From the IMG/VR virus record IMGVR_UViG_3300000213_000010, positions 1 through 20,239 of that record: a stretch of 20,239 nt of DNA, one strand, 5' to 3'. The notes below the pieces were generated by a model. It was not told the origin of the DNA, made no database searches, and saw nothing but the letters and a program-made list of their open reading frames with translations. Source of the stretch: a virus. Below, in pieces: positions 2-16,978 of this stretch (positions are counted from its first letter, which is position 1; each line of letters begins with the position of its first letter). Made by a program: the position numbers and the translations under genes.

Positions 2-340
2 AACGGGCCTCTGGCTCAGGCGTTGGGAACAGCAGTTGAGGCGGGGGTTGCACAGGCGTTTAGCACACAGGCAAGGTATTCAGGGACGAGTCCATTGGTT
101 GCTGTTGGGGCAGATGTGGCGAAAGTTTCTGTAGCTAACGGACCTGTATTGGTTGGTATCTTGAAGCAGACCCTAGCGGCGGTAATGGGAGTTGGCCCGG
201 CATACGGGATGATGGCGACAGGACTGGGGATCGGGGTAGCAGCCCTGCTCTTGACCGGAACTGGATCAGGAACGGTTACAGGAACGCCGGTAGTTCCGGC
301 GGCTCCCGCAACCGGAGCGACAACCTCAGTGGTGATATAG
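2..340 (+). CDS. C-terminal part of a hydrophobic Gly/Ala/Val-rich protein, function unknown (5' truncated)
   Basis: The frame is open from the first full codon in the window to a TAG at 338-340, giving 112 visible residues. A TTG at 23 could be a start, but the frame continues upstream without a stop and no convincing Shine-Dalgarno precedes it, so the gene most likely begins outside the window. The first half looks helical and amphipathic (Ala/Val/Gln-rich). From about base 140 to 285 come two hydrophobic stretches separated by a Gly/Pro turn, which could be a membrane hairpin or buried virion helices. The tail is Gly/Thr/Pro/Ala-rich. The stop codon directly abuts the ATG of the giant gene with no spacer, so the two are probably translated together. 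I do not recognise the family. A small membrane-interacting protein or the end of a longer tail protein are both possible. Confidence 0.7.
   Translation, partial: NGPLAQALGTAVEAGVAQAFSTQARYSGTSPLVAVGADVAKVSVANGPVLVGILKQTLAAVMGVGPAYGMMATGLGIGVAALLLTGTGSGTVTGTPVVPAAPATGATTSVVI
331..336 (+). promoter_or_regulatory. Shine-Dalgarno-like GGTGAT for the giant gene
   Basis: GGTGAT matches the 3' part of the extended consensus TAAGGAGGTGAT and lies 4 bases before the ATG at 341. That short gap is expected when this end of the consensus pairs. It lies inside the end of the preceding gene and supports the ATG that directly follows that gene's stop. It is weak as a stand-alone site, so translational coupling probably helps. 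Confidence 0.45.
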
Positions 341-3300
341 ATGGGCGTCAGATTCACAGGACACGTACTCAGGGGGGCTAGGATTGCCCCTAGTAACTCG
401 ATTACCACGGGTGAGCCTAATACCGGCGTGGTGCGGTTTCCGATTGCTGTTCCAGACGCTTATACGTTGGATGCTCCTGCTTTCGTAGACCCCGCAGCGG
501 ATCAGTATCGGGCAGCTATCATCCAAGGACCGGGGACTACCCCGACTGAGTATCTCGTTTGGGCAGAGAATTCCTCACAGTTGGCATTGCTTGACGGCGA
601 CATCTGGTGGACAGAGGACGGTGCTGGGGCGATCCCTACAGGAACTATCGTTGTTACCGATGATGACCCGCCAGAGGTTGAGGGGGATGTTGACCCTCCG
701 CCTACTTATGGGACGGACCGGATCATAGTCACAGATAACGGCGGTAGGAACGTCTCCAACATCATCGTCATTGTAGTTGCCCGAGGGGACGTGGACTATG
801 ACGATGATGGCTGGAAGGATAGCGACGAAGAGAGCGTGCTCCCTAGTTCATGGGCTGGCCAACCTCGATTGGGTTCTACCCCTTACATCACGTTGGAGAT
901 CAGTGCCGCACAACAGGTGCCCTCTGCTGGGCTTGTCTACCTAACGGGAGCCCAGAAGACAGAATTGGGTGGGGGCGTGTCGTTGGATCGGGGTGATTCG
1001 ATTGTTTCTGTCCGGTACACAGCGGCCCCGGCTCGGTTCTGGTGGAGCCGCAATGACAGGTATGAGACACGGTTTGGGTGGCATGGAAAGAACCAACGGT
1101 GGCAGCCGTACAAGGGTTCCGGGGCGGTCAATGTAGGCACGTTGGAGTTTGGTATCACCTACAAGCTGGCACCTCCGGTGAGAAATCTCCCGGTGGGTGC
1201 ATATTTGCCGGGCGACTCCGCAGTTCCCGATTCCTACAGCATGCTCCGGGTAGGGACGGATGCTGGAGCGACAGGGGTTCCGGTTGATAACGTCCGGGTC
1301 AAGAATAATGCTGAGTTGGAAGACTTCGATTTCTCCTCCGAGCCGGTCCTTAATGCTGTGATGGGTCAGAGTAACGGTGAGGTCAAATTCAACCCTTCAT
1401 TTGTCCAACTACATGCGGGCAAGACCCTCTGGTTCAGCTACAGCGGGTTCCAAGAAGATTCCGAGGGTGCCATCGGACCTCTCCGGCAAGCGGACCTGAC
1501 ACCACCATTCATTGCCCCGATACCTGGGCCAACCGATTATCCCTTCATCCGGTTGGGGTCACGCCGCCCATTGCAACCAACACTGGTAGCGGATGAAGCA
1601 GCATTAGAAGCAGCTACGGCCCCGGCGTCCGGTTCTGTCATTGTCGCTTTGTCTACTGGGCGACTCCGGTTGTCCCTGGATGATGTGCGGAAGGCGGACC
1701 CGGACCGGACAGATGACTTCGATAAGAACTATCTAGGTGAGAACGTCTATTACGAAGGGGTTGCTCTGAACGCTGTGCCCCAGTCTGTCCGCCCGGCGGT
1801 ACAACTGTTGGACGGTGACGGAGATCCCGGAGTTGCCAACAGTAGTGTCCTGTATGTCCCTGACGGTGAATATCTCCCCTCAGAGTTTGTGGCAGATGAC
1901 CCGTGGCGGGGCCTGGGTGTGTCAGGAATTCTGGATGTACCCGATGGCACGGGCGCACTTCCGGTCCTCCCTGGGGTTGCTGCCAGTGTGCGGGCTGGGG
2001 GCGACACGTTGTCTTCAGCTTCAACAGGGCGTGTACGTCAGGTCAGTGACGGGGTGGGAGACACCATCCTCTTCACCCGGAAGGGTGCTATCGAGACTAT
2101 CATTGAGGAGGCGACAGACGAGGATCTCCCGTCTATGGGGTTCCAGGTGGCCTCAAGTAAGGCTTATGTTGCCAAGGAGAGGGGCACTCACGGGTCAAGA
2201 GTGGTTATCGGGAAGAAGGACCGGAAACGGTTCGGTTCTAGCCCCATATACTTCCTTCAGGCTTCATTGGTGCCCGCCATGTACACCTTGGAAGCCGAGA
2301 TGTTCTCCCGGAATAGGGAGATCTTCCGGTTCGAGGGCACCGAGACGTTGTACTTTGCTGTTGACGGGGTCTCCTACACATGGACCCCAGCAACTTTGGT
2401 AGCAGGTGGGCTCACCGCAACCTTCTTTACCGCTGCAGAGGTAGCAGCATCCCTCAATACGGACAGCACGCCAGCAGGCACGTTTGCAAGGGAGCAGAGC
2501 GGACGCATCTGCCTGTACGGGACGACCTCGGTAGAGATCGGGTTCGGGACAGAGGATGAAAAGGATTTGACCGGCAGTGCTATCCTTGGGTTCCCGCCCG
2601 GTTGGCGGGCGGTAGCTGATGTTTCCAACTGGATGCCCGACTCAGGGATCTCGTTGGGGTTGACCCGCAGCCCGGTGAATCTCGACCGGAGTCAATCGGA
2701 CCCCGATTTCAAAGCGGACGTTCGGGTTGAGGACATGCTGCTGGTTGACAGCGTGCAAGAGTCACCCTTTGTGTTTATGAATCAGCCCCCATTACAAGAC
2801 GTTGCTGGGGTTGATGACAACGTGTTCTTCAACATCACTTCCATTGTCCTTGAGAACCTGACCCTCCGGGTGATCCAGCAACCTCTGAGACATTACGAGG
2901 ACATCATCCATCGGTTCGGACAGAGCAAGTTTGATTGGATCGAGCGGGGGGTCATTGTCAGTTCCATTGACCAGCCTACGACGACCCTAACGCTGGGTAC
3001 CCCGAATGTGGTGTTGGAATCCTTGATGGCAGCCCCAGGGATCGGCGGTGGTCTTTACATCAGCGATGACACGGGCAGTTTGGAGTTCCAGGATCCCGAT
3101 ACTGCTTTTGTATTGCCGCAAGATGGAATCCCCGGAAGTGTCACACTGGTCGAGAGATACGGGGACCGTGTGACATATGGCGGAATGGGGACATGTATCA
3201 CCGGAGGAGTGGCATTTGTAGACCTGACAGCGAACTTCCAATCCGAGCTTGACCCCGTGTTGCCGGGCCATCGGCTCAAGATTGCGTCCGGGGACAACGC

Positions 3301-6300
3301 CGGGTCATACAAAGTGGACAGCGTTACGCCCACTACATTAGGGGTTACACCACCTTTCCTGAGTACTACGGTGCGTCCGGTTGCTTGGGAGGTGTTCCGG
3401 GGCTACACCGATGCTGTTTACGACCCTTCGCTGGTTGCGGACATTTCCTACAAGAGTTTTGACCACCTGCAAGAGGAGCCTTTCAAGGTACGTTTGCTGC
3501 ATTCGGTTGGGACGGTTGGGTCCATGATAGATGCCGAGGTAGAGGGTGCTGTTGCCAGCGGTCGGATAGTCACGTTACGGTTCGGCCTGGTAGCCCCCAC
3601 GTCGTCCACTGTCGCTACTTTAGAAGCTCTGGGCACCCAAGCGTTAGGTCCGGTAGCAAACGGCGTACTGGACGTGCCTGATACAGCCTCGGATAGATTC
3701 TCGGAGCAGGCTTTCAGTATTCAGGTGGGACCATCAGAATACAGCGGTGCGAATGTTGTAGGGGTTACGGAGTTCAGTGCCGACCCGGTCTGGATCGAAT
3801 ACCTCACAGAGAATGGTGTAGAGAACGATGTCGCTGTCCCCAAGGGACGGTTGAAGTTTGGGTCTACCCTCATCAGCCAGTATGGGTACGCCCCCGTGAC
3901 CTACCGGGAATTGTTCCTCGCTCCGGCGTCGCTGACAGCAGGACAGGCCGAGTTCAATCCGGTCACAGGGGCTTTGAATATCTCCAGTGCTGATGCAACC
4001 ACTCACGCCGGGAAGCGGCTCTACTTTGTGGAGCAGTTGATAACTGAGGGTGAGCAGGACGTTGCCATCAACCCTCAACTGGGAGCCTTTGCCCCCAATG
4101 TACCGATACCTCCGGGCACAGTAGCCGAAGTAGAGTACTGGACAGCGGATTTGGAGGGGCGGCGCATCGAAGGGTTGGTTACCGAGTTCCTTTCCGTGTT
4201 TATCCAGCGTGAGGATGCAACCCGTGAGAAAGAGAACATCTACAGATTCAATCCTGATGGAATGACTGTAGACGAACGGATTGACCCGACCGTTTGGATC
4301 GGGGCTATGATGCAGAACTTCGGTCAGACCGACTACATCGTTGACTACCCCGAGGGTGCCACCGGAGAGGGACGCATCACTTTTGTAGGGAAGATCGTTG
4401 CGGAGAGTGATCCCGTTCAAGTGACCTATGCTGTATTTGAGGCACAGGGGGGTGAACGGACATTTGAGGCGAGTCAGAAGCCTGTGTACCGACCTCCGTT
4501 CTTTATCAAGGTGAACCAACCTCAGTTCGGATTGCGGGGCGACCGGGAGGCAGAGTTCCTACCGGGCCAGTTGATCCGTCTAGGTGAGGATTGCTTCTAC
4601 ATCAGGAGTCTCAAGTATTATCCTGCAACGGACACAGGCGGGGACGTGACAGCGGTTCGTATCTTCCCTTCTACCGTAGGTGAAGTTGGCAGCCGGTCGC
4701 CGGGGAATGATGTATTGCGGTTGATCTCGGATCAGCCTGTGACAACTGTAGTAGACCCGGACGGCACGACCCCGGTGGCTACGACAGCCCCCGCAGGGTT
4801 CATGTCTACCATCGATTGTACAGTGTTCCCGTTTGAGCCTGTGAGTCAGGGGCAGAAGACTGTCGTTTTCAAAGGTGACCTGACTCAGTTTGCAGTGCCA
4901 GGCCACATTCTGGAGATTGCTGGGTGCCCCCACACGATTGCGGATACAAAACAGTCCGAGGATGGTTCCCGAACGCTGATTACTGTGACAGGGGGCTTTG
5001 TCCGGGGCTACGACGTGTTAGAAGAGCCCACCATCAAACTCTCCTACCGGCCCCTGTACCCGCCGAACACACGGGACTTCGTGGGCTGCGGACCCATGTT
5101 GGAGTCAGAGAACATCGAGTTGGTTCTGTTTGGTGAAACCAATTCTGCAGGGGTGGAGACCCCTGGGCGGACACTGGTTACTGGAGTCGAGTATTTTGCC
5201 GACCCGACCTCGGGGGCAGTCAATCTGTTGAGTCCTGCTCAATCAGCACTAGGGGACGGCCAGTTCCTTTCCTTATCCTTCACCAGGGTAAGAATGGAAC
5301 AGCCCTACATGAAGAATGGGGCTTTGATTCAACCCTCTTACAATGCCGATTACCTCTACAACACGCTCCCCAACACGGATAACGGATTCCTGAAGGCACA
5401 GGTTACAGCGACCTACACCTTCCACAGTCCTGACAGCTTCTACTTCCGGGCGGTTTCTCTGCAGCAGTTCCTGGGCGAGGCTACACAGGAAGCGGTGGCT
5501 GAGATTACAAGTAAGACTCCGGCGGGCGGCGCAGTCAGAGGCTTGCCTGCTTCTGAGAACTGGCAGCAAGGACGGTTCGGGATACTGGGGGAACGTAAGC
5601 ACCTGGTAGATAAAGACCGAGCGGCTCGTGCTTTCTTGTCCTTCTACAATGATAGCATTGTGATGTTCGAGCAGGTGAAGGAAGCCATTTCGGGTGGCAT
5701 TGTAGGTGACCGGGATGGGAAGTTCCGATTCTGGGTTGGTCATGACCGGGCCTACCCGACACCGGGTTATGAGGATGAGATTACGGGCGTACTGGCTCCC
5801 CGGAACATCTGGGCCGATGTGTTCCTGTCTCACCTTTACAAGACGCTTCACATTGATGCAGATGATTACGTGACGACGCCTTTCTCGGCAAGCCTCTCCA
5901 ACGCTAAGATTACCGGAACGATCCCGGACACGGATTATCTGGAGACCCTGCTGACAGAACAGGGTGCGATGGTTCAGAATGACATCGATGACATTGCGAT
6001 GCTCCGCCTGGGCAAAACCACTTTCACTTTCACCCCAACGCCTCCCTTCTTCTTGTTCAAGGCTAAGGGTGTGTTTGCTTCAATGGGGTCCGAGCACCGC
6101 TTCTCACGATTGTTCCCTACCTTGAGCCGGGCGTTCATCCGGTTGTTACCGGGCGTTGGAGCCGAGATTGATGTTGGGGACGGGTTTGATCCGGGTGTTT
6201 ACACCGCAGGCAGGGAGATTGACGGCAAAGATGCCAAGACCCGATGGAAGCAGATAGGTCAGTTGAGTAACCCCGTGTTGGGTGAGATCGATGGGGTCAA

Positions 6301-9300
6301 GACTGCGGCCCTTCAGGTCCGTCGGGCGAGGGGCCGTATCTGGGGTTACTTCCCGGATGGGATCCCGGCGGGAGCTTTTCTGGATGGGATCTCCGCAGCG
6401 ATCATCGAACCTTGTGTCATTGCGTTCCCGACGTTGCTGGGAGAGGTGCCTATCAATCCCAACACGGGATTCCCGGATGAGTCCAAGCTTATGTCCGATG
6501 ATGGACAACTGGGTTGGGTTCCTGATGCGACAGCGGGAGACCCTGTGTTGGCTATCCCAGGGTTCGGTGAGGGTGACCAAGTAGCATGGGGTCAACCGGA
6601 TGGGACAACCTACAAAGCCGTGACAGGTGCTCCGTTCCCGATGTTTGGGACAACGATGTTGACGAGTGCCTTTGTCAATGACGTTCAGCACGGGTGCGTA
6701 ATCCGGTTCAAGGATTTCTTGGGGAATCTGGTAGAGAATCCTGATCTCTTGATGGTTGCTACCGAGACGGCAGCCGGGGTGCCCGCACACGAGTTCCCGA
6801 TCAGTCGGGGTGACACCCTCTATGCGGTTGCCCGGACAGGTTACCGTCCTTCCAGCATGGAAGACGAACCGGAACTGACAGACACACCGACGTTTGAGAC
6901 ATACTCACAGATGGCTTCAGGGTTGGACACCTATCGGGAGAACTTTGACCTCGACGTCAAGAAGGACGGGCGTGTTGTAGACAAGACCCTTTGGTCCTGG
7001 AACGACCCCAACTTCTTTGGCTTGAAAGAATTGTTCGGACAGAACCCCCCGACCCCCATGAGTGCTCTTGAAGGTCCGGTGGAGTTTGTTTACGGGCTTC
7101 AGAACCCTCTTATAATCCCGGCACTTGAGGGCTTGTACCAGAATGACTCCGGTGACTACACACTCCCGTACTTGAAATCCGGGGTGACGGAGATGGATCG
7201 GTTTGATCAGATCTCCGCCGGGTTGTCTGAAGTAATCAGTTCTGAGTCCGCTGGGGATGAGTCGGTCTACCCGGATGAGTTCCTGGGTGACGACGGCACG
7301 GTCGTTGGTTCCGGGGTGTCCCCCGCAGCTTTGACGACAGCGGTTGATGTGTTGCCGGGGGCGTCCCTGGGCGTGAACGACGCTCGTCCCTTTGATTTCT
7401 TGCTAGTACAGGCCCCCGCTGCGGGTCAGGACGCTTCTTTCACAGGTGAGGGGGGCTTGACACTAGGGCCGCATGGTATCTGGTCTGTAGGGGCTGTGAC
7501 GGCGGCAGAGGGTGGCCCATCTGTTGTAGAACCACCGAGGTTCATTACCCACAGCCGGGCACCGCAAGCTGGTTCCACAGATACCGGGGACGCTATCCGG
7601 TACACGTTGGATAATGCCATCGTGCATCTTTACGGGGCGGCATACCCGCCAACCCCACAGGGTGAGGACGTATCAGGTGTCCAAGTCTATGAGCGGGCTG
7701 CCGGTGTCACTGTGTTGGATTTGACCTCGACTCCGATAGCTTTGAACAACGGGGAGACCCTCGGCACAGGTAACCTCAATGATATTGATGCAGACGGGGC
7801 CAGTATCACAATCCGTTTCATTGCATACCCGGATAACCTGGTTGAGTTTGGTCCCGCCGGGGCGGACCCGTTGCCGTCTGCTACCGGAGGCGTTGAGGCA
7901 CTCCGTATCCGTATCACGGATGGGTTGTTAGAGTTGTGGACCTATCAGGATGATCCCGATGGTGCTCCTTCCTTTAGTGGTGCGATAGGTGCAGCAGTTC
8001 AATGGGGCGTGAAAGAAGCGGCGGACCCTGCTCCGGGCAGCGTTCTGGGCTACCGTAAGATCATCATTCCTTTGACCGGGTTTATGCCCTGGGTACCCGA
8101 TGTCCTGCCTCCAGGCTGGGCCTTGAACAAGTGGTTCCTCCCATATGAAATGAATGTAGCGGACTATGAGATGCTCTACCCGATGGAAGTTGTCATCGAT
8201 GTAGATGCACAGGACGGGAAATTGTCCAACCGAGGTTGGGTCAGTGAGGACCGCCTGACGTTCAATGAGATTTACGACCTGCGGTATGCCAAGGAGAGGG
8301 GTGCAACTCATCCTTTGACGGACCTCTCGCTGGAGACCCAGTTAGTTGTGTACGGGACACAGACAGGCTTGACGGCGGGTACCGAAGTGTGGAGTGAGGC
8401 TAACAAGTACGTCAACGGTCTGTCCGGTGCCAATCCTATCCCGTTCACATTTGTACCCCGTGATTCTGTAGTTGGTGTCTGGGCTGTTAGGGACGGGGAC
8501 ACGACGGAACGGGGTTCCTTGAAAGTGATGGCGTTTGAAGGTTGGGGTGATGATCCTCTGACAGCAGAGGATGTGACCTTCTCGGTTGTACCTTCCAGTG
8601 ACTATGCGACGGACGGGGCGGCTCCAATCCTTCTCGGTACAGGACTGATGGGCAGCCAGTTCAACACCAGTATGACGGCAGCCGAACGTGAGAGCACAGA
8701 TAACCGTATCAAGTTGGTTGGACCTGTTGTTGGTGATGTTGAGGATGTAGTGGCGGGTGATGTTGCTGTTGTCACGGGGTCATCGAACTCGGACCACCCA
8801 GGTTCCTTACACATCGGGACGTACCTGGTCCGTCATGGGGTCACGGCGAATGAAGACCCCCTTGTGGGTGAGTTCCGTTTGGTCAGTCCATTGTCCAAGA
8901 TTGATAGCACCTCTGATTGGTGTCAGGTCTCCTTCCCGGAGGTTCTCTCTTATGACTCTGGTGAGAGCAAGCTGACCATCAGCCACCTAGCCCCCGCTGG
9001 GTCTTTGGCGAGTGGGTTTGCGCCCGCCGGGGCCGGGACTCGAATCTATGTGCTAGTGAACTATCCCAAGTTGGCATCCGGGACAGAGTTGATCTTCCGG
9101 CGGGCGGTCATCAGTGCCTTGTATACGGAGATCGAGACTGGGCCGAACGGTGAAGGGATCTTCACTGTCTCCGATTGGAAGGATGCCAAGGGTGAGGCCC
9201 CGGAGGTAGGTGAAGACTACTACACAGATTTCGAGGCTCTCTTAGAAGCGGGGCAGCCTATCTCCGGGATGATCTACCTCCCTGTTGTGATGGGTGGTTC

Positions 9301-11710
9301 CAACTACGGGTTGCCGGACAATAACACGGTGGGTTGGGATAGCGTGGTTGCGGGCAAGGAAGCTGTCTACGGTTGGCGACGTCTGACCTTGAATCCACCT
9401 CTGGTACTACGGAACTTCGCTGCTGATGCGGATAAGGCATTGCCTCTACAGTTTAACGTCGCAGGCGCACTGGGTGACGCAGACGGGGGCATCGTCAAGG
9501 TAGGGGCCGCAGGCAACATCACGCCGGTAGTAGCGACTCCTGAAATCAGCAATGAGTTCTACAGTGACCCCACGACCCCTGTTTATCACTGGGTGACCGA
9601 GCGGCTGGATGTATCCCAGTTGTCCGATGCTCAGTGGGACAAGTTGAATGTACCGACGGGGTCTGCTGGTGCCGGTGCTGGATTGGTCAACTGTGTGTTG
9701 CCCCGTTCAGAGTTCCGATGTACCTCCTACGATGATGCAGGAACACCTCTCTTGCAGCCAGGGTTCCTAGCCCAGGCTGGAGTGTTCCTTGAGCCCTCGG
9801 TGCCGAGAGCGGTTGCTGACCGGGGGCAAAACTTCGTTCATGTGGTTGATCAGGATCACAACAATATACCTGATCCCACGGCACTGGATGACTGGGACCG
9901 GGTAATAGGGGCACGGGAAGCGAACGACTACAACCCTAGTGCAGCGGTAGCGGACCCGGAGACGGTATCTTTCACGATCCGCCGCATCCGACGGTTCCAT
10001 GATGTTGCTCAGGTTGAACAGAATCTGAAGCCTCTCCGCTTTGCCTATGAGATACGGCGGGGCTTCATTACAGGTTATGTCCAGGACAACAAACAGACTG
10101 CCATTGTGACGGCACAGTCCTTTACGATGAACTGGGAGGCTACCAAACCTGCGGGGGCACCCAAGGCAAACGACGCTTGGGCAGACGGGTTGACCTACAC
10201 AGGGACGAACCTTGGTCCCTTTGATGACCCGGACGTGAATATCCATCCCGGCGATATGTTCCGATTGCTGGATGAGAACGGACTCATGGTTGAAGAAGCT
10301 CGTATTGTGACGGTGCTGGGACCGAACCAGATGAAGCTGGCGGTACCTGGGTTGGCTTTGTACGAGGCCGGTACCGTTTGCCGGTTTGAAATATGGTTAC
10401 GGCAAGCACCCGTGCCCCACGAGCAGTCCAACGAGAAGTTGTTGGATCTCATCTCGGACTCGGAAGTTACCCGCACAGATGCGGCTTGGGGTGAAGCGTC
10501 TGAGACCGGGGGTTACACCCTACAGGTCACGGGGGAACTCACTTACGACGACTGTGTGAACAAACTCTATGATGATCAGAAGGCACCTGGAACGGATGGA
10601 CAGACCTTCGGGGCGTTAGGCGTTCGGGCGGGTGACATCATTGTGGTAGACCCTGTGGGCGTTATTCCACAGAAGGGTGGGTTGCCGCTGGTTCAGGAGG
10701 TAGGGGTAAGGCCACTAGGGGATGAGGCTGTACCAGGGCGCACTGATTGGGATGCCAACTCAGTGTACACGGCTGGGGAACCCAACCCGTTGGATGATAA
10801 CCGAGGGTTCTATCGAGTCCTGTCTATTGTAGACACGGAGATCCCGCCGTACCTGATTGTGGACCCTGTAACAGAGTTCACAGGGACAGCGGCGGCTCCG
10901 GTGACGTTTGATCCTACCGACTCGACTCGTGAGTATGCTGTGTACCCCACGGTGAACGACTCCTCCTTGTCCGAGGATGACACAGAGGGGCAGATGGACC
11001 TCCGGCCTACACGGGCCAGGAACCCCGTTACAGGGTCATTCAAGAATTACGATGAGGGGTTGAGCAACCATTCGGTCCGTCCCTTCTCCTACCGGGTTAT
11101 TCGGCCCTCAGCTTTGTTCGAGGATGAATCCATCGACCTGGTGTTGTCTACCCGTGAACGGATGCAGAGTCTCATTGAGTTCATTTTGAGAATCAGCCGA
11201 GCGAAAGGTGGGTCATACTTCATCTTCCAACGTGACGTGCATATCGGTGAACTGGGAGACCCCACAGATGCGGAGCTTGGTCTGGGGGTGATGTCCAACG
11301 ATTTCCTGGAGATGGTTATGGGCCGGGTAGAGGTAATGCCTTACGCCAACAACTCCGGGTGTATGTCGGTACTTGACCGGAGATTCTGGGTACTTGACCA
11401 GCGGTTGGACTCCTTGACCTATGATGCTGTTACGCATGGGATGAAGAAATCTACGCCGGGTGATCCTACCTACACAGCCTATACGGATGACACTGGTGGG
11501 TTGGTACGTCCGGTGCTCCCGGATCTCATTGACGGGGTGTTGGACCACGACGAGCGGTTCCGGGCTGTCCGGTATGTTTGGTTGTCTTACCGGGTGCATA
11601 CGGTACTGGGCACTCTAGCTGCTATTCAGCGATTCGATGATGAGTTACCCGCCCGCCTTGCTGAACGTGAGCAGTTGTTGTTGCAGTTGAAGTCGACGGA
11701 GGACGTTTGA
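341..11710 (+). CDS. Giant (3,789-residue) beta-rich virion protein, probable baseplate or tail-tip component
   Basis: One unbroken frame from ATG 341, directly after the upstream TAG, to TGA 11708-11710. The protein is rich in Asp, Gly, Pro, Thr and Val, poor in Lys and Cys, and dominated by short strand-turn patterns. It lacks the long Ala/Lys/Gln helices and hydrophobic segments of a tape measure. Visible elements in order: an acidic, proline-rich linker with an EF-hand-type loop at residues 152-163; beta-hairpin modules of similar layout near 347-365, 1203-1235 and 1616-1653; a hook-IN-like module near 660-752; a possible lectin-like beta region around 2400-2700 (weak); a second calcium-loop-like motif at 3170-3181; an Arg-rich stretch (RIRRFHDV) soon after it; and a helical C-terminus from about 3588, ending in a charged helix over the last 25 residues. 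No signal peptide or catalytic motif is seen. It heads a coupled block that ends in gp25-like and J-like baseplate genes, so a structural role is very likely. The exact role is inferred. A giant receptor-binding or baseplate-decorating protein is the main alternative. Confidence 0.85.
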   Translation: MGVRFTGHVLRGARIAPSNSITTGEPNTGVVRFPIAVPDAYTLDAPAFVDPAADQYRAAIIQGPGTTPTEYLVWAENSSQLALLDGDIWWTEDGAGAIPTGTIVVTDDDPPEVEGDVDPPPTYGTDRIIVTDNGGRNVSNIIVIVVARGDVDYDDDGWKDSDEESVLPSSWAGQPRLGSTPYITLEISAAQQVPSAGLVYLTGAQKTELGGGVSLDRGDSIVSVRYTAAPARFWWSRNDRYETRFGWHGKNQRWQPYKGSGAVNVGTLEFGITYKLAPPVRNLPVGAYLPGDSAVPDSYSMLRVGTDAGATGVPVDNVRVKNNAELEDFDFSSEPVLNAVMGQSNGEVKFNPSFVQLHAGKTLWFSYSGFQEDSEGAIGPLRQADLTPPFIAPIPGPTDYPFIRLGSRRPLQPTLVADEAALEAATAPASGSVIVALSTGRLRLSLDDVRKADPDRTDDFDKNYLGENVYYEGVALNAVPQSVRPAVQLLDGDGDPGVANSSVLYVPDGEYLPSEFVADDPWRGLGVSGILDVPDGTGALPVLPGVAASVRAGGDTLSSASTGRVRQVSDGVGDTILFTRKGAIETIIEEATDEDLPSMGFQVASSKAYVAKERGTHGSRVVIGKKDRKRFGSSPIYFLQASLVPAMYTLEAEMFSRNREIFRFEGTETLYFAVDGVSYTWTPATLVAGGLTATFFTAAEVAASLNTDSTPAGTFAREQSGRICLYGTTSVEIGFGTEDEKDLTGSAILGFPPGWRAVADVSNWMPDSGISLGLTRSPVNLDRSQSDPDFKADVRVEDMLLVDSVQESPFVFMNQPPLQDVAGVDDNVFFNITSIVLENLTLRVIQQPLRHYEDIIHRFGQSKFDWIERGVIVSSIDQPTTTLTLGTPNVVLESLMAAPGIGGGLYISDDTGSLEFQDPDTAFVLPQDGIPGSVTLVERYGDRVTYGGMGTCITGGVAFVDLTANFQSELDPVLPGHRLKIASGDNAGSYKVDSVTPTTLGVTPPFLSTTVRPVAWEVFRGYTDAVYDPSLVADISYKSFDHLQEEPFKVRLLHSVGTVGSMIDAEVEGAVASGRIVTLRFGLVAPTSSTVATLEALGTQALGPVANGVLDVPDTASDRFSEQAFSIQVGPSEYSGANVVGVTEFSADPVWIEYLTENGVENDVAVPKGRLKFGSTLISQYGYAPVTYRELFLAPASLTAGQAEFNPVTGALNISSADATTHAGKRLYFVEQLITEGEQDVAINPQLGAFAPNVPIPPGTVAEVEYWTADLEGRRIEGLVTEFLSVFIQREDATREKENIYRFNPDGMTVDERIDPTVWIGAMMQNFGQTDYIVDYPEGATGEGRITFVGKIVAESDPVQVTYAVFEAQGGERTFEASQKPVYRPPFFIKVNQPQFGLRGDREAEFLPGQLIRLGEDCFYIRSLKYYPATDTGGDVTAVRIFPSTVGEVGSRSPGNDVLRLISDQPVTTVVDPDGTTPVATTAPAGFMSTIDCTVFPFEPVSQGQKTVVFKGDLTQFAVPGHILEIAGCPHTIADTKQSEDGSRTLITVTGGFVRGYDVLEEPTIKLSYRPLYPPNTRDFVGCGPMLESENIELVLFGETNSAGVETPGRTLVTGVEYFADPTSGAVNLLSPAQSALGDGQFLSLSFTRVRMEQPYMKNGALIQPSYNADYLYNTLPNTDNGFLKAQVTATYTFHSPDSFYFRAVSLQQFLGEATQEAVAEITSKTPAGGAVRGLPASENWQQGRFGILGERKHLVDKDRAARAFLSFYNDSIVMFEQVKEAISGGIVGDRDGKFRFWVGHDRAYPTPGYEDEITGVLAPRNIWADVFLSHLYKTLHIDADDYVTTPFSASLSNAKITGTIPDTDYLETLLTEQGAMVQNDIDDIAMLRLGKTTFTFTPTPPFFLFKAKGVFASMGSEHRFSRLFPTLSRAFIRLLPGVGAEIDVGDGFDPGVYTAGREIDGKDAKTRWKQIGQLSNPVLGEIDGVKTAALQVRRARGRIWGYFPDGIPAGAFLDGISAAIIEPCVIAFPTLLGEVPINPNTGFPDESKLMSDDGQLGWVPDATAGDPVLAIPGFGEGDQVAWGQPDGTTYKAVTGAPFPMFGTTMLTSAFVNDVQHGCVIRFKDFLGNLVENPDLLMVATETAAGVPAHEFPISRGDTLYAVARTGYRPSSMEDEPELTDTPTFETYSQMASGLDTYRENFDLDVKKDGRVVDKTLWSWNDPNFFGLKELFGQNPPTPMSALEGPVEFVYGLQNPLIIPALEGLYQNDSGDYTLPYLKSGVTEMDRFDQISAGLSEVISSESAGDESVYPDEFLGDDGTVVGSGVSPAALTTAVDVLPGASLGVNDARPFDFLLVQAPAAGQDASFTGEGGLTLGPHGIWSVGAVTAAEGGPSVVEPPRFITHSRAPQAGSTDTGDAIRYTLDNAIVHLYGAAYPPTPQGEDVSGVQVYERAAGVTVLDLTSTPIALNNGETLGTGNLNDIDADGASITIRFIAYPDNLVEFGPAGADPLPSATGGVEALRIRITDGLLELWTYQDDPDGAPSFSGAIGAAVQWGVKEAADPAPGSVLGYRKIIIPLTGFMPWVPDVLPPGWALNKWFLPYEMNVADYEMLYPMEVVIDVDAQDGKLSNRGWVSEDRLTFNEIYDLRYAKERGATHPLTDLSLETQLVVYGTQTGLTAGTEVWSEANKYVNGLSGANPIPFTFVPRDSVVGVWAVRDGDTTERGSLKVMAFEGWGDDPLTAEDVTFSVVPSSDYATDGAAPILLGTGLMGSQFNTSMTAAERESTDNRIKLVGPVVGDVEDVVAGDVAVVTGSSNSDHPGSLHIGTYLVRHGVTANEDPLVGEFRLVSPLSKIDSTSDWCQVSFPEVLSYDSGESKLTISHLAPAGSLASGFAPAGAGTRIYVLVNYPKLASGTELIFRRAVISALYTEIETGPNGEGIFTVSDWKDAKGEAPEVGEDYYTDFEALLEAGQPISGMIYLPVVMGGSNYGLPDNNTVGWDSVVAGKEAVYGWRRLTLNPPLVLRNFAADADKALPLQFNVAGALGDADGGIVKVGAAGNITPVVATPEISNEFYSDPTTPVYHWVTERLDVSQLSDAQWDKLNVPTGSAGAGAGLVNCVLPRSEFRCTSYDDAGTPLLQPGFLAQAGVFLEPSVPRAVADRGQNFVHVVDQDHNNIPDPTALDDWDRVIGAREANDYNPSAAVADPETVSFTIRRIRRFHDVAQVEQNLKPLRFAYEIRRGFITGYVQDNKQTAIVTAQSFTMNWEATKPAGAPKANDAWADGLTYTGTNLGPFDDPDVNIHPGDMFRLLDENGLMVEEARIVTVLGPNQMKLAVPGLALYEAGTVCRFEIWLRQAPVPHEQSNEKLLDLISDSEVTRTDAAWGEASETGGYTLQVTGELTYDDCVNKLYDDQKAPGTDGQTFGALGVRAGDIIVVDPVGVIPQKGGLPLVQEVGVRPLGDEAVPGRTDWDANSVYTAGEPNPLDDNRGFYRVLSIVDTEIPPYLIVDPVTEFTGTAAAPVTFDPTDSTREYAVYPTVNDSSLSEDDTEGQMDLRPTRARNPVTGSFKNYDEGLSNHSVRPFSYRVIRPSALFEDESIDLVLSTRERMQSLIEFILRISRAKGGSYFIFQRDVHIGELGDPTDAELGLGVMSNDFLEMVMGRVEVMPYANNSGCMSVLDRRFWVLDQRLDSLTYDAVTHGMKKSTPGDPTYTAYTDDTGGLVRPVLPDLIDGVLDHDERFRAVRYVWLSYRVHTVLGTLAAIQRFDDELPARLAEREQLLLQLKSTEDV
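794..829 (+). other. EF-hand / dockerin-type calcium-binding loop in the giant protein (residues 152-163)
   Basis: The 12 residues read DYDDDGWKDSDE. They place Asp at loop positions 1, 3, 5 and 9, Gly at 6 and Glu at 12, the canonical calcium-coordinating spacing. Position 8 is Lys instead of the usual hydrophobic residue, so it resembles isolated dockerin or extracellular loops more than a paired EF-hand. More Asp residues flank it on the N-terminal side. Calcium binding is inferred from this pattern alone. Confidence 0.6.
2321..2593 (+). other. Hook-IN-like module in the giant protein (about residues 661-751)
   Basis: A beta-hairpin (YFAVDGVSYTW) is followed by a helix with the pattern FTAAEVAASLN, then a strand (SGRICLYG) and a closing G-x-A-x-L-G-F segment. 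The order 'strand pair, TA-x-E-[IV]-x-x-x-[IL]-N helix, G-x-[IL] strand, A-x-LGF' is the layout of flagellin-hook IN-type motifs found in flagellar and phage tail proteins. The same order appears in the gp25-like protein of this cluster (about residues 75-151). The boundaries are approximate and the fold is inferred from the pattern. Confidence 0.4.
9848..9883 (+). other. Thrombospondin-type-3-like acidic loop in the giant protein (residues 3170-3181)
   Basis: The residues DQDHNNIPDPTA follow the D-x-D-x-N-N-I-P-D spacing of TSP3/dockerin-like calcium loops and are followed at once by LDDWD. The final acidic ligand is not in the canonical position 12, but Asp residues lie just after it. It is weaker than the loop at residues 152-163. 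Calcium binding is inferred. Confidence 0.4.
11698..11702 (+). promoter_or_regulatory. GGAGG ribosome binding site for the 81-residue gene
   Basis: GGAGG lies inside the last codons of the giant gene, 7 bases before the ATG at 11710 and only 4 before the in-frame TTG at 11707. The spacing favours the ATG, which overlaps the upstream stop as TGATG and suggests termination-reinitiation coupling. Confidence 0.75.
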
Positions 11711-11955
11711 TGATTGAGGATACCAAAAAGATGTCCCCGGAAGAGGTGCGGAAGGCTTTGAAGGACATGGGGATTGATATAGATGGTTGGGGGGACGTTG
11801 AAAGCCATTCTGCTCAACCCGAGTTCTTACAGCGTCAGGGGCGTACCCTCGTTAAGCTCCGTGATATTCTGACGTCGGTAGTGGCTAAGGACCAATCTGA
11901 TGTAGCCCGGTTGCGTGAACAACTCGCCCGGCTTCAGCACGGCGGGGGGTCATAA
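11710..11955 (+). CDS. Small helical protein, function unknown
   Basis: An 81-residue protein from the ATG at 11710, which shares a base with the giant gene's TGA, to the TAA at 11953-11955. The TTG one codon earlier is a less likely start because of Shine-Dalgarno spacing. The N-terminal half contains a charged helix (MSPEEVRKALKDMGI) and an acidic turn. The C-terminal half (about residues 38-76) is a heptad-like helix ending in RLREQLARLQ, followed by a short Gly-rich tail, so it could form a coiled coil. No enzyme motif, signal peptide or membrane segment is visible. Sitting between two large virion genes with one-base overlaps on both sides, it is plausibly a small baseplate or assembly partner of one of them. 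That is context only; I do not recognise a family. Confidence 0.8.
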   Translation: MIEDTKKMSPEEVRKALKDMGIDIDGWGDVESHSAQPEFLQRQGRTLVKLRDILTSVVAKDQSDVARLREQLARLQHGGGS

Positions 11956-14867
11956 TGTCAGACGACTGGGGAACAATCACGTTTGATGTGCCCGATATTT
12001 TGGAGGACACCCGAGATTTCATCAACAGTGTCGCCGAGTTCCTGGTCACGATGCTGGATATTGCGTTGATGGCACTGGAGTTTGCCAAGGTATTCCTGGT
12101 TGGCTTGCTCGACCCCATTGCAGCATTGATCCAACTTATCGTGGATGAACTCAAGGCATTACTCCGTGATCTCCGGCAGATGGGGTTGTATATGACCGGG
12201 GATTGGGGGCTGCTGACGTACCCCTATGATGATCTGTTGGGTGGATTTGCTGAGTACGAGCGGCGTATGATTGCTCGGCTGACAGACAGGACGGACCCCT
12301 CTCGCCCTGACCTGTCCGGTAAGACCTCTATCCTGTCCATCTTTTTCTACCTCTCGGTGGACATCTCAGACATCCAGCGGCTGATCAAGTTCCTTAAGCA
12401 ATTAGTCAAGTATTTCAATCAGTCCTACGACAATGCCAGCGGCTATCCTATCTGTCAGGTCACTGACGTTCTGTACGGGGCCAGTGCTGCTACCATTATG
12501 CAGGCGCAGGACATCGCCAGCTTCTTTACTACAGAATCAACTCCTCCGCCCATCTCGTTGGTCAAGTGGGGGGTTCAGTCCCCAACCCAGCGTTCCCCTT
12601 TCAATCCGTTCCCACCTGGTCCTCCCGGTGGGTTCATCGTGACGGTCTCCACTGTTCAGGACGGGATTCAGCTTGTCTATGACCGCCCCTCCTCTACCGG
12701 GGGCATGAAGCCCGCTCCGTCTGGGCCAGGTCAGGTACAAGGGCGTGAATACGGGATGGTCAAAGATAGCGTCGGCAAGCCTGTAGTCATTATGGGTGGC
12801 GATGAGATGTTGGACGACCTTGCCCCTATGATGCAGTACAACTTTGGCCTTGAGAGTGACGGGACAATCAAACCGGGTGCTGTCCGGGTTTACGGGCTGG
12901 TTCCCAGTACCAAGACAATGATCCCGTTAGACCAGCTCAAACAGGGTGACAACTACTACTTCCAGCGGACGTTCTATGTGTCGCCAGCGCAAGCTGGAGC
13001 AGCTTGGTTTACGGGTGAATATTCAGTCCTGTTGAAACAGGAGGAAATGCCCCGTGCCGGGCATGTCGTAACTAACTCGGACGGGACGTTGACTATTGAA
13101 GACGATGGTGTCCCAGCGGTCTTGTACGTCCGGGTAGCGTGCTGTGCTAAGAACATCGCTGACACTGAGGTTTTCCAGTACTCGTTCGATCCAGCGGGCA
13201 AGGACGTAGTGGGGGACAACATCATCGCTTTGAACCTGGGTGCCCTACCTACGGATAAGCCTGCACCGACGGAACTGGGGGATTGGAGTGCGCCCCGTCA
13301 GGTTGTGTTCCCGAACGCCAACACGAAGGCATATCTGGAGGCTCTCAAGACAGCATTGATGGTGTTGGTGTTGAGCCGCCCGGACCTGACCCCACTGGAC
13401 ACACTGGCCGAGACGTTTTCCGCTGAAGACCTTGCCCGGATACAAGCTAATAAGTGGCTGATACCTCAGTTGGCGTTAGAAAGATGCGGGCTGGAGAAGT
13501 TCGTGCATCTGGCGGATTTAGTTGTAGGGGGTGATTACACGGAATGGGTGCAGTCCTATGAGGACTCAGACCCGATGGAATGGCGGAAATCCCTGTACGA
13601 CAACATTCAGAAAGTTGCTCACGACATATACAGCAAGACGGGGCCGATGCCCGAGGTCGAAGCTATCGTAGCCCAACAGACAGAGTTCCTCCGGTTGGCC
13701 ACCTGGAACACCATTTTGAGTGCCGCTCACACCAGCGACGTGATTAACCACATGGATGAGGAGGTCCAACTGGCTACGACGATGAAGGGTCCGATACTGG
13801 ATTCGCTGGAGACCAAGGAGAGTACCAGCAAGGGTTTCCATCTGATGGCCGGATTGGCTCGAAATCCTGCAGGGATAATGGGGGAGACGGGTCATCTGGA
13901 TATGATTATGTCTTCTCCTTTTGTCACGTTGGATAGGCTCCCCCAGATGCAGGAATGCAAGGTAGGGGATAATGGGCCGAAATGGGGAGCAGGAGGTCAT
14001 GCAACCGAAGTTAAGGCTGCGGAGGTACCCGCTTTCTTGGCGGAACTCCCCGTCGGGCTACGGGTCATATATGAGAAGTTAGTCCAGGAGGACGGTTCCA
14101 TTCAGGTGCCTGTTACGGGTGGGTGGGATGATGCGATTATGGATGTCTATGCACAACCTGCACAGTACATGGGGTCCGCTGACATCTCACCAGTGTTCTA
14201 TTTGAATCGTTCACTGTTGGAGAGCAGCGTTGACTATGGATTAGGGCGTGTCCTCTATTGTCGGGGCCTCTTTGCTAAAGCTAACAATGGGCAAATTTTC
14301 CGGGAGGCTGCAATCGCATTGAGTATGGCCGCTGCAACCACCCGCTCTCCCGACGACGGTGCTTGGATGAATGTCCGGTTTGTAGACACCCTCCCTGGCA
14401 TTGATAAAGTAGTCTCCATGATTGTGAACTGGGTTGAGGCTGTTCAGAAATCTCTTCAGTCCATTATCGATGCCTATCTGAAGTACATCGGATTCATTGA
14501 GGATCGCATTGTTGAGATGCAGCAGTTGATCCGGCGCATAAACAGTATGATCCAGACGATACTGGGAACTACCCTCCAGATCCCCAAGTGCTCTGCTTTG
14601 ACGATGGTCTCGGCGGGTACTAACGGGATACTGGCTGATTTGGTTGCGGCTCAGACTAAGCCGAGTGACGGTCCACGGGCTTACGGGGCCGGGGTGGCCA
14701 TCGTATTGCCTATCGGACCCACCTGGATTATGGATCTCATCTCGGCAGCATTGGTTACGAGTGAGGGTTCCCCTGTAGAGGGGCAGTACCTGGCGGGGAG
14801 CGGTATCACGGGTATCTCAGGTGTCCCAGACCCGGTTGTTGAGAGCGAGGAACCTGATGTCCTGTAG
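11955..14867 (+). CDS. 970-residue virion protein with terminal hydrophobic/amphipathic helices, function unknown
   Basis: Starts at ATG 11955 in a TAATG overlap with the preceding stop, with a G-run at 11944-11949 as a weak ribosome site. Ends at TAG 14865-14867. Residues about 10-75 are several consecutive hydrophobic or amphipathic helices rich in Leu, Ile and Val, and residues about 120-160 contain another hydrophobic helix pair. A proline-rich hinge (PFPPGPPGG) near 217-226 leads into a beta-rich middle with strand patterns such as GFIVTVSTV. The stretch from about 440 to 640 is more helical. Near 815-875 there is a long amphipathic or coiled-coil helical region, followed by another hydrophobic segment before the acidic C-terminus. 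No signal peptide or catalytic motif is recognised. The position in a coupled baseplate operon implies a virion or assembly role. The terminal helices could bundle inside the baseplate or contact membrane; this cannot be decided from sequence. The family is not recognised. Confidence 0.85.
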   Translation: MSDDWGTITFDVPDILEDTRDFINSVAEFLVTMLDIALMALEFAKVFLVGLLDPIAALIQLIVDELKALLRDLRQMGLYMTGDWGLLTYPYDDLLGGFAEYERRMIARLTDRTDPSRPDLSGKTSILSIFFYLSVDISDIQRLIKFLKQLVKYFNQSYDNASGYPICQVTDVLYGASAATIMQAQDIASFFTTESTPPPISLVKWGVQSPTQRSPFNPFPPGPPGGFIVTVSTVQDGIQLVYDRPSSTGGMKPAPSGPGQVQGREYGMVKDSVGKPVVIMGGDEMLDDLAPMMQYNFGLESDGTIKPGAVRVYGLVPSTKTMIPLDQLKQGDNYYFQRTFYVSPAQAGAAWFTGEYSVLLKQEEMPRAGHVVTNSDGTLTIEDDGVPAVLYVRVACCAKNIADTEVFQYSFDPAGKDVVGDNIIALNLGALPTDKPAPTELGDWSAPRQVVFPNANTKAYLEALKTALMVLVLSRPDLTPLDTLAETFSAEDLARIQANKWLIPQLALERCGLEKFVHLADLVVGGDYTEWVQSYEDSDPMEWRKSLYDNIQKVAHDIYSKTGPMPEVEAIVAQQTEFLRLATWNTILSAAHTSDVINHMDEEVQLATTMKGPILDSLETKESTSKGFHLMAGLARNPAGIMGETGHLDMIMSSPFVTLDRLPQMQECKVGDNGPKWGAGGHATEVKAAEVPAFLAELPVGLRVIYEKLVQEDGSIQVPVTGGWDDAIMDVYAQPAQYMGSADISPVFYLNRSLLESSVDYGLGRVLYCRGLFAKANNGQIFREAAIALSMAAATTRSPDDGAWMNVRFVDTLPGIDKVVSMIVNWVEAVQKSLQSIIDAYLKYIGFIEDRIVEMQQLIRRINSMIQTILGTTLQIPKCSALTMVSAGTNGILADLVAAQTKPSDGPRAYGAGVAIVLPIGPTWIMDLISAALVTSEGSPVEGQYLAGSGITGISGVPDPVVESEEPDVL

Positions 14868-14878: not shown

Positions 14879-15766
14879 ATGGCGTCCTTTTCAAAGCTGT
14901 GTGTCTGGCCGGTTGGTTACTTCCGGGCGTACTCAAGCTGGCTTCTCAAGAATCGACGGGAGGTAGCTGCTCGGATCAATGTGTTAACGGCTGAGATTGA
15001 CAGAATTGGGTTCATCACAGTGGAGTATGGGAAGGAGGAGCAGGATAACGGAGCTATTGTCCGTAATGAACAGAGAATGGGTATCCGAGTTACAGAGGGC
15101 TCATCGCTGGGATTGTTGCTTCGGGCTTACATCGCCAGCGGGGGCGACCCTCTGAACATTTCACCTTTCATGTACCCCAATACCAATGAGATTTCTAGCC
15201 TCTCGGGTGCTGAGGAACCTGTTGTCAAAGAGAAGTACCCGCACGGGGGAATAGCGGCTCCTATCTCCTCCTCCCCCCTTGGGTCGGAAGTGTCTGAGAC
15301 CACTACGGGGTTTGAACCAGACCCCGGTGGGAACATCAGGATGGAAGCCTACTATCCGGCCCGGCAGGGCGGGGTGATCGATCCCGGTTCCTATGACTAT
15401 GACGCTATCGTTAAATCCATGCACCACCTTCGAAGCTGGGCGAATCAGGACATCAAGGAGAGGGTCCAGGACATTGAGTGGCGGATTATCAAGCTCTGTG
15501 ACCTTCGGGAACAGTTGACCAAAGAGCGTGATGAAGTGCTGATTGCAGCTTTTGGTGGTGCCGTGAGTGGTGTTGGACCTCTGGATGAGGAACAGTTTGA
15601 TCCGGGTCTTCGGGTACAGTGTCTTGTCCAGGATATGTACGAGTTGCTCTATGATGTTGATGATACCGGCGGGGCTGTTTACCGAGCGAAGGAGGATGTT
15701 CAGTTCCTCCAGTTCACCTTCCCCGATACCGCAGCCGAAGCGGTAAGAGACCCGTTAGGCTGCTAG
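14879..15766 (+). CDS. 295-residue protein of unknown function, probable virion or baseplate component
   Basis: Starts at ATG 14879 after a good AGGAG and ends at TAG 15764-15766. The N-terminal part (about 1-90) looks helical, with a basic amphipathic helix (WLLKNRREVAARINVL) and a later RMGIRV-type strand. Residues about 95-180 are Pro/Gly/Ser-rich with few secondary-structure signals and look like an extended linker. Residues about 183-225 form a strongly charged helix (KERVQDIEWRIIKLCDLRE), probably a coiled coil. The last 60 residues are acidic and end in a Cys. No known domain is recognised and no signal peptide or membrane helix is seen. It lies between the 970-residue protein and the gp25-like gene, so a wedge or adaptor role is plausible but is inferred only from position. 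Confidence 0.8.
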   Translation: MASFSKLCVWPVGYFRAYSSWLLKNRREVAARINVLTAEIDRIGFITVEYGKEEQDNGAIVRNEQRMGIRVTEGSSLGLLLRAYIASGGDPLNISPFMYPNTNEISSLSGAEEPVVKEKYPHGGIAAPISSSPLGSEVSETTTGFEPDPGGNIRMEAYYPARQGGVIDPGSYDYDAIVKSMHHLRSWANQDIKERVQDIEWRIIKLCDLREQLTKERDEVLIAAFGGAVSGVGPLDEEQFDPGLRVQCLVQDMYELLYDVDDTGGAVYRAKEDVQFLQFTFPDTAAEAVRDPLGC

Positions 15767-15823: not shown

Positions 15824-16978
15824 ATGACACGAGAATATCAACTGGCGTGGCCATGCCCGCATACAACGGTGGAGGAATCGGTAACGCTAGGGGCCGACCG
15901 CCGTACCTTGCGGACTCAACAACCCGTAGCGGGTGCGGCCACTATCCGCCTACTGGTGAACAACGAGATGTTCATCCCACAGGCCGGGTTGTATTCCAAT
16001 GCATCGTTAGCAAGTGCTGTTTCCGGCCCCTACGAACTGATCCCGGATGAAGATACCATCACGATTTTGACCTCAGCGGGCACCACGACTCATACTTTCA
16101 ATGTGCCTCGAACGACTAGATACACAGCGACCCAGATCATAGAGTTACTCAAGCGAGCTAATATCCGGGTCTACATGGAGAACGATAACGGTCATCTGGT
16201 GTTCTATGACACTGAGGCAATAGGGCCTGGTTCACGGGTCAAGGTGACGGGGACGGCAGCGGGGGCATTAGGTTTTGGGGCACCCGGTGTCAACACCTAC
16301 CAATGGCAGGCGATGGGCAAGGAGTTGTACCCAAGCTGGCACCTCTACACCCCGGACGATGAGGTGACCACCCGGTTTCCACGGTTCGACCGTATTATCC
16401 GGGGGAACCCTATATTCAAGGCTACATACACGACAGCCCCCAATAGATGCCTCCGGTGCGGGGCGTCCTATGTAGAGAATGACCTTCGCTTTGATTCCCA
16501 GGGTCAGAGCCTGATGATTGAGAATGAGAATCTGTTGTACCAAGCGGCCCTCAAGGTGCTGTTGACGGACAAGGGTTCCAACCCTTATCACCCCTGGTAC
16601 GGAACGTCTTTGCGGTCCCGAATAGGGAGCAAGGCTGTCTCAGGGGTTGCATCCCTGATCAGTGAGGACATCCGCAAAGCGTTGGAGAAATTCCAACGGC
16701 TTCAGGAATCTCAGGCACAGTACCAACAAGTGACCTTCAAAGAACGATTGCTCGTGATCCAATCGGTAGATGTGAAGCGGCACGAGCAGGATGAGACAAC
16801 CTACTTGATAGATGTGACGGTGCGGAATGCGTCCTCACAGCCGGTGTCCTTATCGATAGTCTTCACCGTGCCCTCCGTTGTTGCCCTGATGGGTTCCAAT
16901 GGTTTGATGCTCGGAACGGAGCCTACCGGGGTACTCCCGCAGAATCAGGGCCAGTTGTTCCTTACCGGACAGAGGTAA
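15824..16978 (+). CDS. Baseplate wedge protein with C-terminal gp25/gpW-like domain and N-terminal extension
   Basis: A 384-residue protein, ATG 15824 to TAA 16976-16978. Residues about 230-293 match the gp25/gpW pattern: ENLLYQAALKVLLTDKGS, then P-x-YG, then S-R-IGS, then a helix ending DIRKALEKFQ. That domain helps form the wedge core and starts sheath assembly in contractile tails. The family norm is about 115-140 residues (T4 gp25 is 132), so this protein is roughly three times as long. The extension has a beta region (1-70), a hook-IN-like module (about 75-151, with TATQIIELL and a closing AAGALGF) and a linker. Just before the gp25 domain comes a CLRCG motif (Cys209, Cys212) followed by DLRFD. 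A beta tail (about 303-384) follows the gp25 domain. It lies 3 bases upstream of the J-like gene, a typical gp25-J pairing. The gp25 assignment is from pattern recognition and fairly secure; the roles of the extensions are unknown. Confidence 0.8.
   Translation: MTREYQLAWPCPHTTVEESVTLGADRRTLRTQQPVAGAATIRLLVNNEMFIPQAGLYSNASLASAVSGPYELIPDEDTITILTSAGTTTHTFNVPRTTRYTATQIIELLKRANIRVYMENDNGHLVFYDTEAIGPGSRVKVTGTAAGALGFGAPGVNTYQWQAMGKELYPSWHLYTPDDEVTTRFPRFDRIIRGNPIFKATYTTAPNRCLRCGASYVENDLRFDSQGQSLMIENENLLYQAALKVLLTDKGSNPYHPWYGTSLRSRIGSKAVSGVASLISEDIRKALEKFQRLQESQAQYQQVTFKERLLVIQSVDVKRHEQDETTYLIDVTVRNASSQPVSLSIVFTVPSVVALMGSNGLMLGTEPTGVLPQNQGQLFLTGQR
16046..16276 (+). other. Hook-IN-like module in the gp25-like protein (residues 75-151)
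   Basis: A beta-hairpin (TITILTSAG and THTFNV) is followed by the helix TATQIIELLKRANI, a strand in NGHLVFYD, a GPGSRVKVTG segment and the closing AAGALGF. This order matches hook-IN-type motifs of flagellar and tail proteins, and the module near residues 661-751 of the giant protein in this window. Fold and boundaries are inferred. Confidence 0.5.
16511..16702 (+). other. gp25/gpW-like wedge domain (residues about 230-293)
   Basis: Shows the family's 'L-x-Q-x-x-x-x-x-L-x-T-x-x-G-S' helix-turn, then P-x-YG, an IG turn and a final alpha helix with Ile-Arg-x-Ala-Leu spacing. This short region is the basis for calling the gene a baseplate wedge component. Confidence 0.75.
16972..16975 (+). promoter_or_regulatory. 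GAGG ribosome binding site for the J-like gene
   Basis: GAGG (in AGAGGTAA) sits in the last codons and stop of the gp25-like gene, 6 bases before the ATG at 16982. It supports that start and coupled translation of the two baseplate genes. Confidence 0.65.

Follow-up and report, generated by a model that had tools for sequence, protein, structure and literature searches.

A family of giant beta-rich proteins from the tail gene clusters of huge phages, with a proposed place in the baseplate

Bacteriophage T4 gp7, a monomer of 119 kDa present in six copies (PMC3004832), is a large multi-domain wedge protein that, with the peripheral gp8 and gp10, bridges the gp6/gp25 core of the baseplate to its periphery. 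In Bacillus phage G, gp183-gp189 follow the order tape measure, gp184, hub, spike slot, gp25, J and I, and the tail bears an outer coil of unknown protein (PMC8570332). Bacillus phage 0305phi8-36 is a myovirus with an unusually large amount of virion protein sequence and with inserted multi-gene structural modules (PMC2147016). Proteins of up to 7,694 aa, some of them tentatively structural, were reported from huge phages by Al-Shayeb et al. 2020, and large putative structural proteins of such phages are thus already known as a kind (PMC7162821). The LR7452xx records belong to that set (PMC9723777), and one of them, LR745208, carries a full-length homologue of the protein described here. The text of the 2020 paper does not draw particular attention to this family, its fixed length, its gene cassette or its module repeats (PMC7162821). 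In the open-access literature we found no account of such a family or of its uniform size, its cassette and its separation from the tape measure.

The giant gene and its family

The window, the whole stretch of DNA analysed here, is a complete IMG/VR record of 20,239 bases. Relatives are designated below by L or G numbers or by accession. The window carries the following genes:

2-340, plus strand: C201, the 3' part of a Gly/Ala-rich protein of ~200 aa, directly upstream of the giant gene in most loci
341-11710, plus strand: the giant protein, a proposed baseplate scaffold or arm (open reading frame, family, models, selection)
11710-11955, plus strand: D82, a small helical protein, 81 aa from the ATG at 11710, coupled to the giant gene and conserved in position
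11955-14867, plus strand: E966, 970 aa with hydrophobic helical ends, the inseparable gene partner of the giant, conserved in position
14879-15766, plus strand: F294, 295 aa, conserved in position
15824-16978, plus strand: a gp25-like sheath initiator/baseplate wedge protein with an extra N-terminal part (profile comparison)
16982-20239, plus strand: a J-like (T4 gp6-type) baseplate wedge protein, truncated where the window ends (Baseplate_J, 4.7e-18)

The original prediction of a single 3,789-residue protein was borne out: the reading frame runs intact from its ATG to a TGA and is conserved. The product has a mass of 408 kDa, a pI of 4.44 and a net charge of about -232, and Gly, Pro, Thr and Val together make up 33.4% of its residues, in keeping with its description as acidic and rich in these four amino acids. 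Its stop codon overlaps the ATG of the next gene (TGATG, 11708-11712), and the stop codon of that 82-aa gene overlaps the following ATG (TAATG, 11953-11957), so the giant is translationally coupled with downstream genes. That this series ends in gp25-like and J-like genes, as had been read from the sequence, was confirmed by profile matches of both.

No Pfam, PHROGs or NCBIfam model matched the giant protein significantly, which agrees with the earlier impression that it has no standard name, and a profile of 26 full-length giants gave chance-level matches only against PDB sequences. Among 50,697 phage records, the sole homologue-bearing record was LR745208.1, an uncultured and unannotated genome of 485 kb whose giant is full length and 33% identical; none of these records was an isolate with a giant homologue. 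A search of IMG/VR with patterns derived from a four-member alignment of giants yielded 140 relatives, from which 80 loci were retained, with full-length giants on contigs of 536, 497 and 436 kb. The same pattern search, which may miss distant relatives, found none in 84,980 prokaryote genomes.

The 47 non-redundant full-length members measure 3,444-4,024 aa (mean 3,738, s.d. 129) and can be aligned end to end, with pairwise identities of 32-86% (mean 40%). Conservation extends over the whole length and includes both termini; it dips at ~2401-3100, a region that is probably surface-exposed, and is high again at the C-terminus. The best-conserved 60-residue block is 1741-1800.

7541-9640, plus strand: giant residues ~2401-3100, the least conserved part (column conservation)

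Compared with its closest relative, in L003 (82% identical), the giant gene has an overall dN/dS of 0.07, and the ratio is low in every 300-codon window, one of which has saturated dS. Given this ratio and the 47 full-length homologues, the gene is real, and it is under strong purifying selection along its full length. Two loci, L111:10001-21141 and L060:3-8022, show the giant as two overlapping reading frames, either through sequencing error or as a true split.

Gene neighbourhood in the window and in relatives

Across dozens of contigs the gene order is A206-B522-hub-spike-C201-giant-D82-E966-F294-gp25-J-I, which places the giant in a conserved baseplate gene cluster; the exception is the LR745208 clade, described below. 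The core genes were identified by profile comparison. The J profile matched gp241 of Tunturiibacter phage Tunturi_5 at an hhalign probability of 100% and phage G gp188 at 99.6%. The gp25-like protein is weak on its own (Pfam, 5.4e-5, below the cut-off; PHROG, 1.9e-7) and clear by profile, at 98.5% each to Tunturi_5 gp242 and phage G gp187. The I profile matched phage G gp189 at 98%, B522 matched gp184 (95%) and the hub gp185 (85%). The spike is named for its position and for a weak signal of 37% to Tunturi_5 gp253. Family searches returned nothing for C201 (Pfam and PHROGs) or F294, and neither family nor PDB searches did so for E966. Segments of the giant, E966 and F294 gave no match to 17 annotated phage proteins, used as single sequences. 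Against the PDB, the spike, 970-aa and I-like profiles found nothing clear (the spike reached a VgrG at E 0.056), and the hub profile picked up coiled-coil noise only.

In LR745208, the giant, D82 and E966 genes lie together on one strand (~230-244 kb), with C201 nearby on the other. The gp25-J-I genes (258-269 kb) and the sheath-to-hub genes (~315-335 kb) are set apart, on the strand opposite to the giant. The cassette has thus moved as a unit in this clade and now lies ~20 kb away from gp25-J, with the hub at a distance of ~70 kb. Four further loci (L042, L050, L067 and L080) also have the giant and E966 together, with gp25 and J absent from the 10-kb flanks. The strongest sign of a joint function of the giant and E966 is this shared behaviour, which also speaks mildly against an obligatory gene link of the giant to the wedge. 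The reading frame directly upstream of the relocated cassette (LR745208.1 228481-230241, plus strand) was considered as a spike and rejected, as it resembles a helicase by motif reading, unlike a tail gene, and has no match to the spike profile. Pairwise identities of the giant track those of J (r = 0.95), E966 (0.95), B522 (0.93), hub (0.90) and gp25 (0.86). By this comparison of sequences the giant is passed on together with the core genes instead of being exchanged, although such correlations also arise from shared phylogeny alone.

The original prediction had called for a tape measure to be sought elsewhere in the genome, and one was found upstream in three relatives (1,009-1,142 aa). On the 75.8-kb contig G002, a gene of 1,142 aa, Ala-rich and including a strongly hydrophobic segment, was assigned to phrog_24 ('tail length tape measure protein') at E 4.3e-5, and at 1.1e-7 by genome search; its orthologues have 1,009 aa in the 536-kb contig and 1,127 aa in LR745208. 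Each of these two orthologues directly follows two genes in the chaperone position. In all three relatives the slot after the tube and chaperone genes, where a tape measure is expected, is held by this gene, and the giant lies elsewhere, farther along the same tail cluster in G001 and G002. At ~0.15 nm per residue, a tape measure of this size corresponds to a tail of roughly 150-170 nm.

Several other tail genes of the relatives deserve a record in their own right. The protein in the tail-sheath slot has 1,665-1,770 aa (LR745208.1 330421-335418, minus strand, also L114:30421-35418; orthologues at L005:751-6063, plus strand, and G001 96401-101713). Its C-terminus matches Phage_sheath_1 (E 0.013) and Phage_sheath_1C (E 9.8e-4) weakly, colinearly and below the curated cut-offs, and it may be a tail sheath that a long beta-rich N-terminal addition has brought to roughly threefold the normal size. 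The hub has different domains of the cell-wall-degrading kind at about the same place in two relatives, both weakly recognised: a tail lysozyme domain at L002:1874-6937 (PF18013, E 1e-4) and an endolysin-like domain at L003:1931-6973 (phrog_894, E 0.008). The I-like protein and the large protein that follows it form a single fusion in G002 48237-53678 (1,813 aa), and this region is split in G001 51963-59563 (464 + 1,858 aa). Upstream of the hub lie two paralogues, L005:17873-18493 (206 aa) and L005:18493 to L006:61 (522 aa), the larger of which matches phage G gp184. Relative to phage G gp178-gp189, most tail proteins of the L003 and L002 clusters are much larger (hub, 1,680 versus 840 aa; J, 1,157 versus 619; I-like, 1,813 versus 1,109), and the tape measure, at 1,142 versus 2,893 aa, is far shorter (PMC8570332).

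Predicted fold and internal modules

AlphaFold2 models built on 46-member alignments cover 2,391 residues, or two thirds, of the giant. The model of residues 1215-2410 is fair (mean pLDDT 75, pTM 0.47, 31% strand) and that of residues 2595-3789 is good (mean pLDDT 83, pTM 0.70, 26% strand); helix accounts for 12-18% of the two. The final 195 residues, 3595-3789, are 57% helix in the model and among the best-conserved parts, so that a beta-rich protein with a helical C-terminus, as originally described, is also what the models predict. A second helical stretch, at ~1707-1784, goes beyond that description. It overlaps the best-conserved block and has helices at model-local positions 493-510 and 534-570, part of it with pLDDT below 50.

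Profile self-comparison with hhalign revealed three small module families inside the giant. These and the other features of the protein are:

1211-1711, plus strand: residues ~291-457, two module copies (296-357 and 390-450; hhalign probability 59-84%)
2081-2236, plus strand: residues ~581-632, a further copy of the 296-450 module (57-81%)
3224-3520, plus strand: residues ~962-1060, the 'PGxxLxIxxGxxAGxYxVxxV' module (92-95% to the I-like family)
3671-4060, plus strand: residues ~1111-1240, a copy of the 296-450 module (81-93%)
4193-4444, plus strand: residues ~1285-1368, a weakly indicated beta domain like those of Ig, pilin, S-layer and phage baseplate proteins (VIA Z ~5-6, background level)
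4505-5062, plus strand: residues ~1389-1574, paired beta barrels (1389-1468 and 1489-1575; duplication 93-95%)
5459-5692, plus strand: residues ~1707-1784, helical stretch (model helices with pLDDT partly below 50, conservation)
10034-10420, plus strand: residues ~3232-3360, a beta barrel common in tail proteins and elsewhere (VIA Z ~8, background level)
11123-11707, plus strand: residues 3595-3789, the conserved helical C-terminus (57% helix in the model, conservation)

The first module family thus recurs at 296-450, 581-632 and 1111-1240. The 962-1060 module has weaker copies near 3293-3353 and 3486-3593 (hhalign probability 53-75%), and the I-like baseplate protein has two or more copies of it (92-95%). 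This was the only cross-protein match obtained from the module seeds of the giant; hub and spike gave none in the same search. The common module ties the giant to the baseplate by content, beyond position. The original term 'modular' holds in the sense of small repeated folds and fails in the sense of shuffled parts, since the architecture is fixed in 47 of 47 full-length members.

The best structural match was that of the barrel 1485-1574 to a domain of the K1 capsule lyase tailspike (VIA Z 10.7, r.m.s. deviation of 1.8 Å for 75 residues). The JBD30 baseplate (hub), a tail tube, T5 pb9 (Dit) and the phi92 tailspike followed at Z 7-8, and about 20 of the 25 top rows were virion proteins of phages or gene-transfer agents. 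The barrel at 3232-3360 was dropped as evidence because its Z of ~8 was also reached by barrels of EF-Tu, UBA6 and V-ATPase, and most other VIA matches were at the level given by unrelated models. A predicted fold in common with virion proteins says nothing of the function of the giant. Foldseek found no match at E < 0.001 with a meaningful TM for either model in the PDB. Five matches at E < 0.001 to predicted viral structures, all of large cyanophage or Caudovirales proteins, had a TM of ~0.06 and therefore mean only 'multi-domain beta-rich'.

Location, proposed role and known systems

From gene order and shared modules we infer that the giant is a virion protein located in the baseplate, as the original prediction of an unusually large baseplate or tail-tip protein had supposed. 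Our favoured reading, to which we assign a probability of about 0.6, is that it forms a structural part of the baseplate on the contractile tails of a huge-phage lineage, as a fixed scaffold of beta modules with helical anchors. The gene order, the profile-matched core genes, the separate tape measure, the I-like module and the barrel 1485-1574 all point this way, as do the constant length, termini conserved unlike those of a fibre, co-inheritance with J and E966, and purifying selection. Against it stand the lack of any sequence match or clear whole-fold match to a known baseplate protein, the circumstantial nature of gene order, and the LR745208 clade, in which the cassette lies away from gp25-J and the hub.

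Size is what would suggest a tape measure, as big phage genes often encode one. The predominantly helical, extended structure expected of such a protein is at odds with the strand-rich models; no PHROG or Pfam tape-measure family matched, and the relatives have their separate phrog_24 gene. As the original prediction had maintained, a tape measure or other tail-lumen protein is extremely improbable. We regard it as unlikely that the giant is a host-recognition appendage, that is, a long fibre, whisker or spike that is anchored in the baseplate and binds surface sugars through its beta modules. Its small barrels do resemble those of tailspikes and carbohydrate-active proteins, and the acidic, Gly/Thr-rich composition and the variable region 2401-3100 would suit such a role. 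A receptor-binding fibre is expected to vary most at its tip, however, and the giant has no variable tip: its C-terminal 190 residues are among the best conserved, and its length is fixed. Family searches gave no match to a known fibre, S74 chaperone or lyase domain, and other large beta-rich genes occupy the usual fibre place downstream of the I-like gene.

If the giant belonged to the central hub-spike assembly, as a collar or sleeve enclosing the spike and produced along with the adjacent spike and C201 genes, this would account for the position of its gene directly after these two, for the matching barrel in Dit and hub proteins, and for the hydrophobic helical ends of the 970-aa partner. 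Yet in the LR745208 clade the giant is far from the hub and still accompanied by E966, and its shared module is that of the I-like wedge protein, the same search giving no match in hub or spike, which leaves this arrangement quite improbable. The outer tail coil of phage G (PMC8570332), and the occurrence of the cassette apart from other tail genes, could be taken to favour a structural role at another site of the virion, for instance as a coil on the sheath surface or a decoration of neck or head; the usual place between spike and gp25 and the module common to the I-like protein make this very unlikely.

If the giant is indeed a baseplate scaffold, a single chain would carry many small beta modules, with helical anchors in mid-chain and at the C-terminus. 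Both ends and the middle helical stretch would bind neighbours, most likely the 82-aa and 970-aa partners and the gp25/J/I wedge. The beta modules would span and brace a large baseplate from wedge core to periphery, keeping the wedge in place on the hub-spike and extending out to the fibre attachment sites. By analogy with T4 gp7, the giant is probably a wedge-associated scaffold or arm; its copy number, too, would be set by this analogy, and six copies would alone contribute ~2.4 MDa to the baseplate. More tentatively, and with some doubt, the giant and its partners (C201, the 82-aa and 970-aa proteins and possibly the 295-aa protein) could make up a further layer of the baseplate outside the canonical hub and wedges, a sub-assembly that evolved as one inherited block and allows huge phages to surround an ordinary core with an outsized baseplate.

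The virion genes of huge phages include large ones without annotation, and one putative gene of this kind now stands as a defined family of fixed size and place with named partners. For annotation, a gene for ~3,800 residues between spike and gp25 in such genomes should not be called a tape measure. If the proposed location is correct, the giant ranks among the largest baseplate proteins that any phage makes as a single chain.

The likeness to T4 gp7 is one of analogy; the giant is 3.4 times larger and no homology was detected. A protein of the T4 gp7/P2 gpI type would be recognised by homology and by its place after J; the giant matched neither phage G gp189 nor Tunturi_5 gp240, and in its lineage the gp7/I slot is held by the separate I-like protein, which corresponds to gp189. 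In Tunturi_5, a 308-kb isolate whose J and gp25 match strongly, the interval from spike to gp25 is also filled by large proteins (1,003-1,969 aa, two with RCC1-like annotations), which showed no detectable relation to the giant when compared as single sequences. The extra modules of 0305phi8-36, compared here by description only, come and go among its relatives, whereas the giant is kept at constant length. A parallel in gene order is phage G, five genes of which were matched by profile. There, gp186 in the spike slot adjoins gp25 (gp187), and we found no counterpart of the giant or of the 82-, 970- and 295-aa proteins, so the cassette of the giant amounts to ~16 kb of extra genes at that point. 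If the baseplate reading holds, a contractile-tail core of the phage G type has been enlarged by one inherited inserted cassette and not by new core parts.
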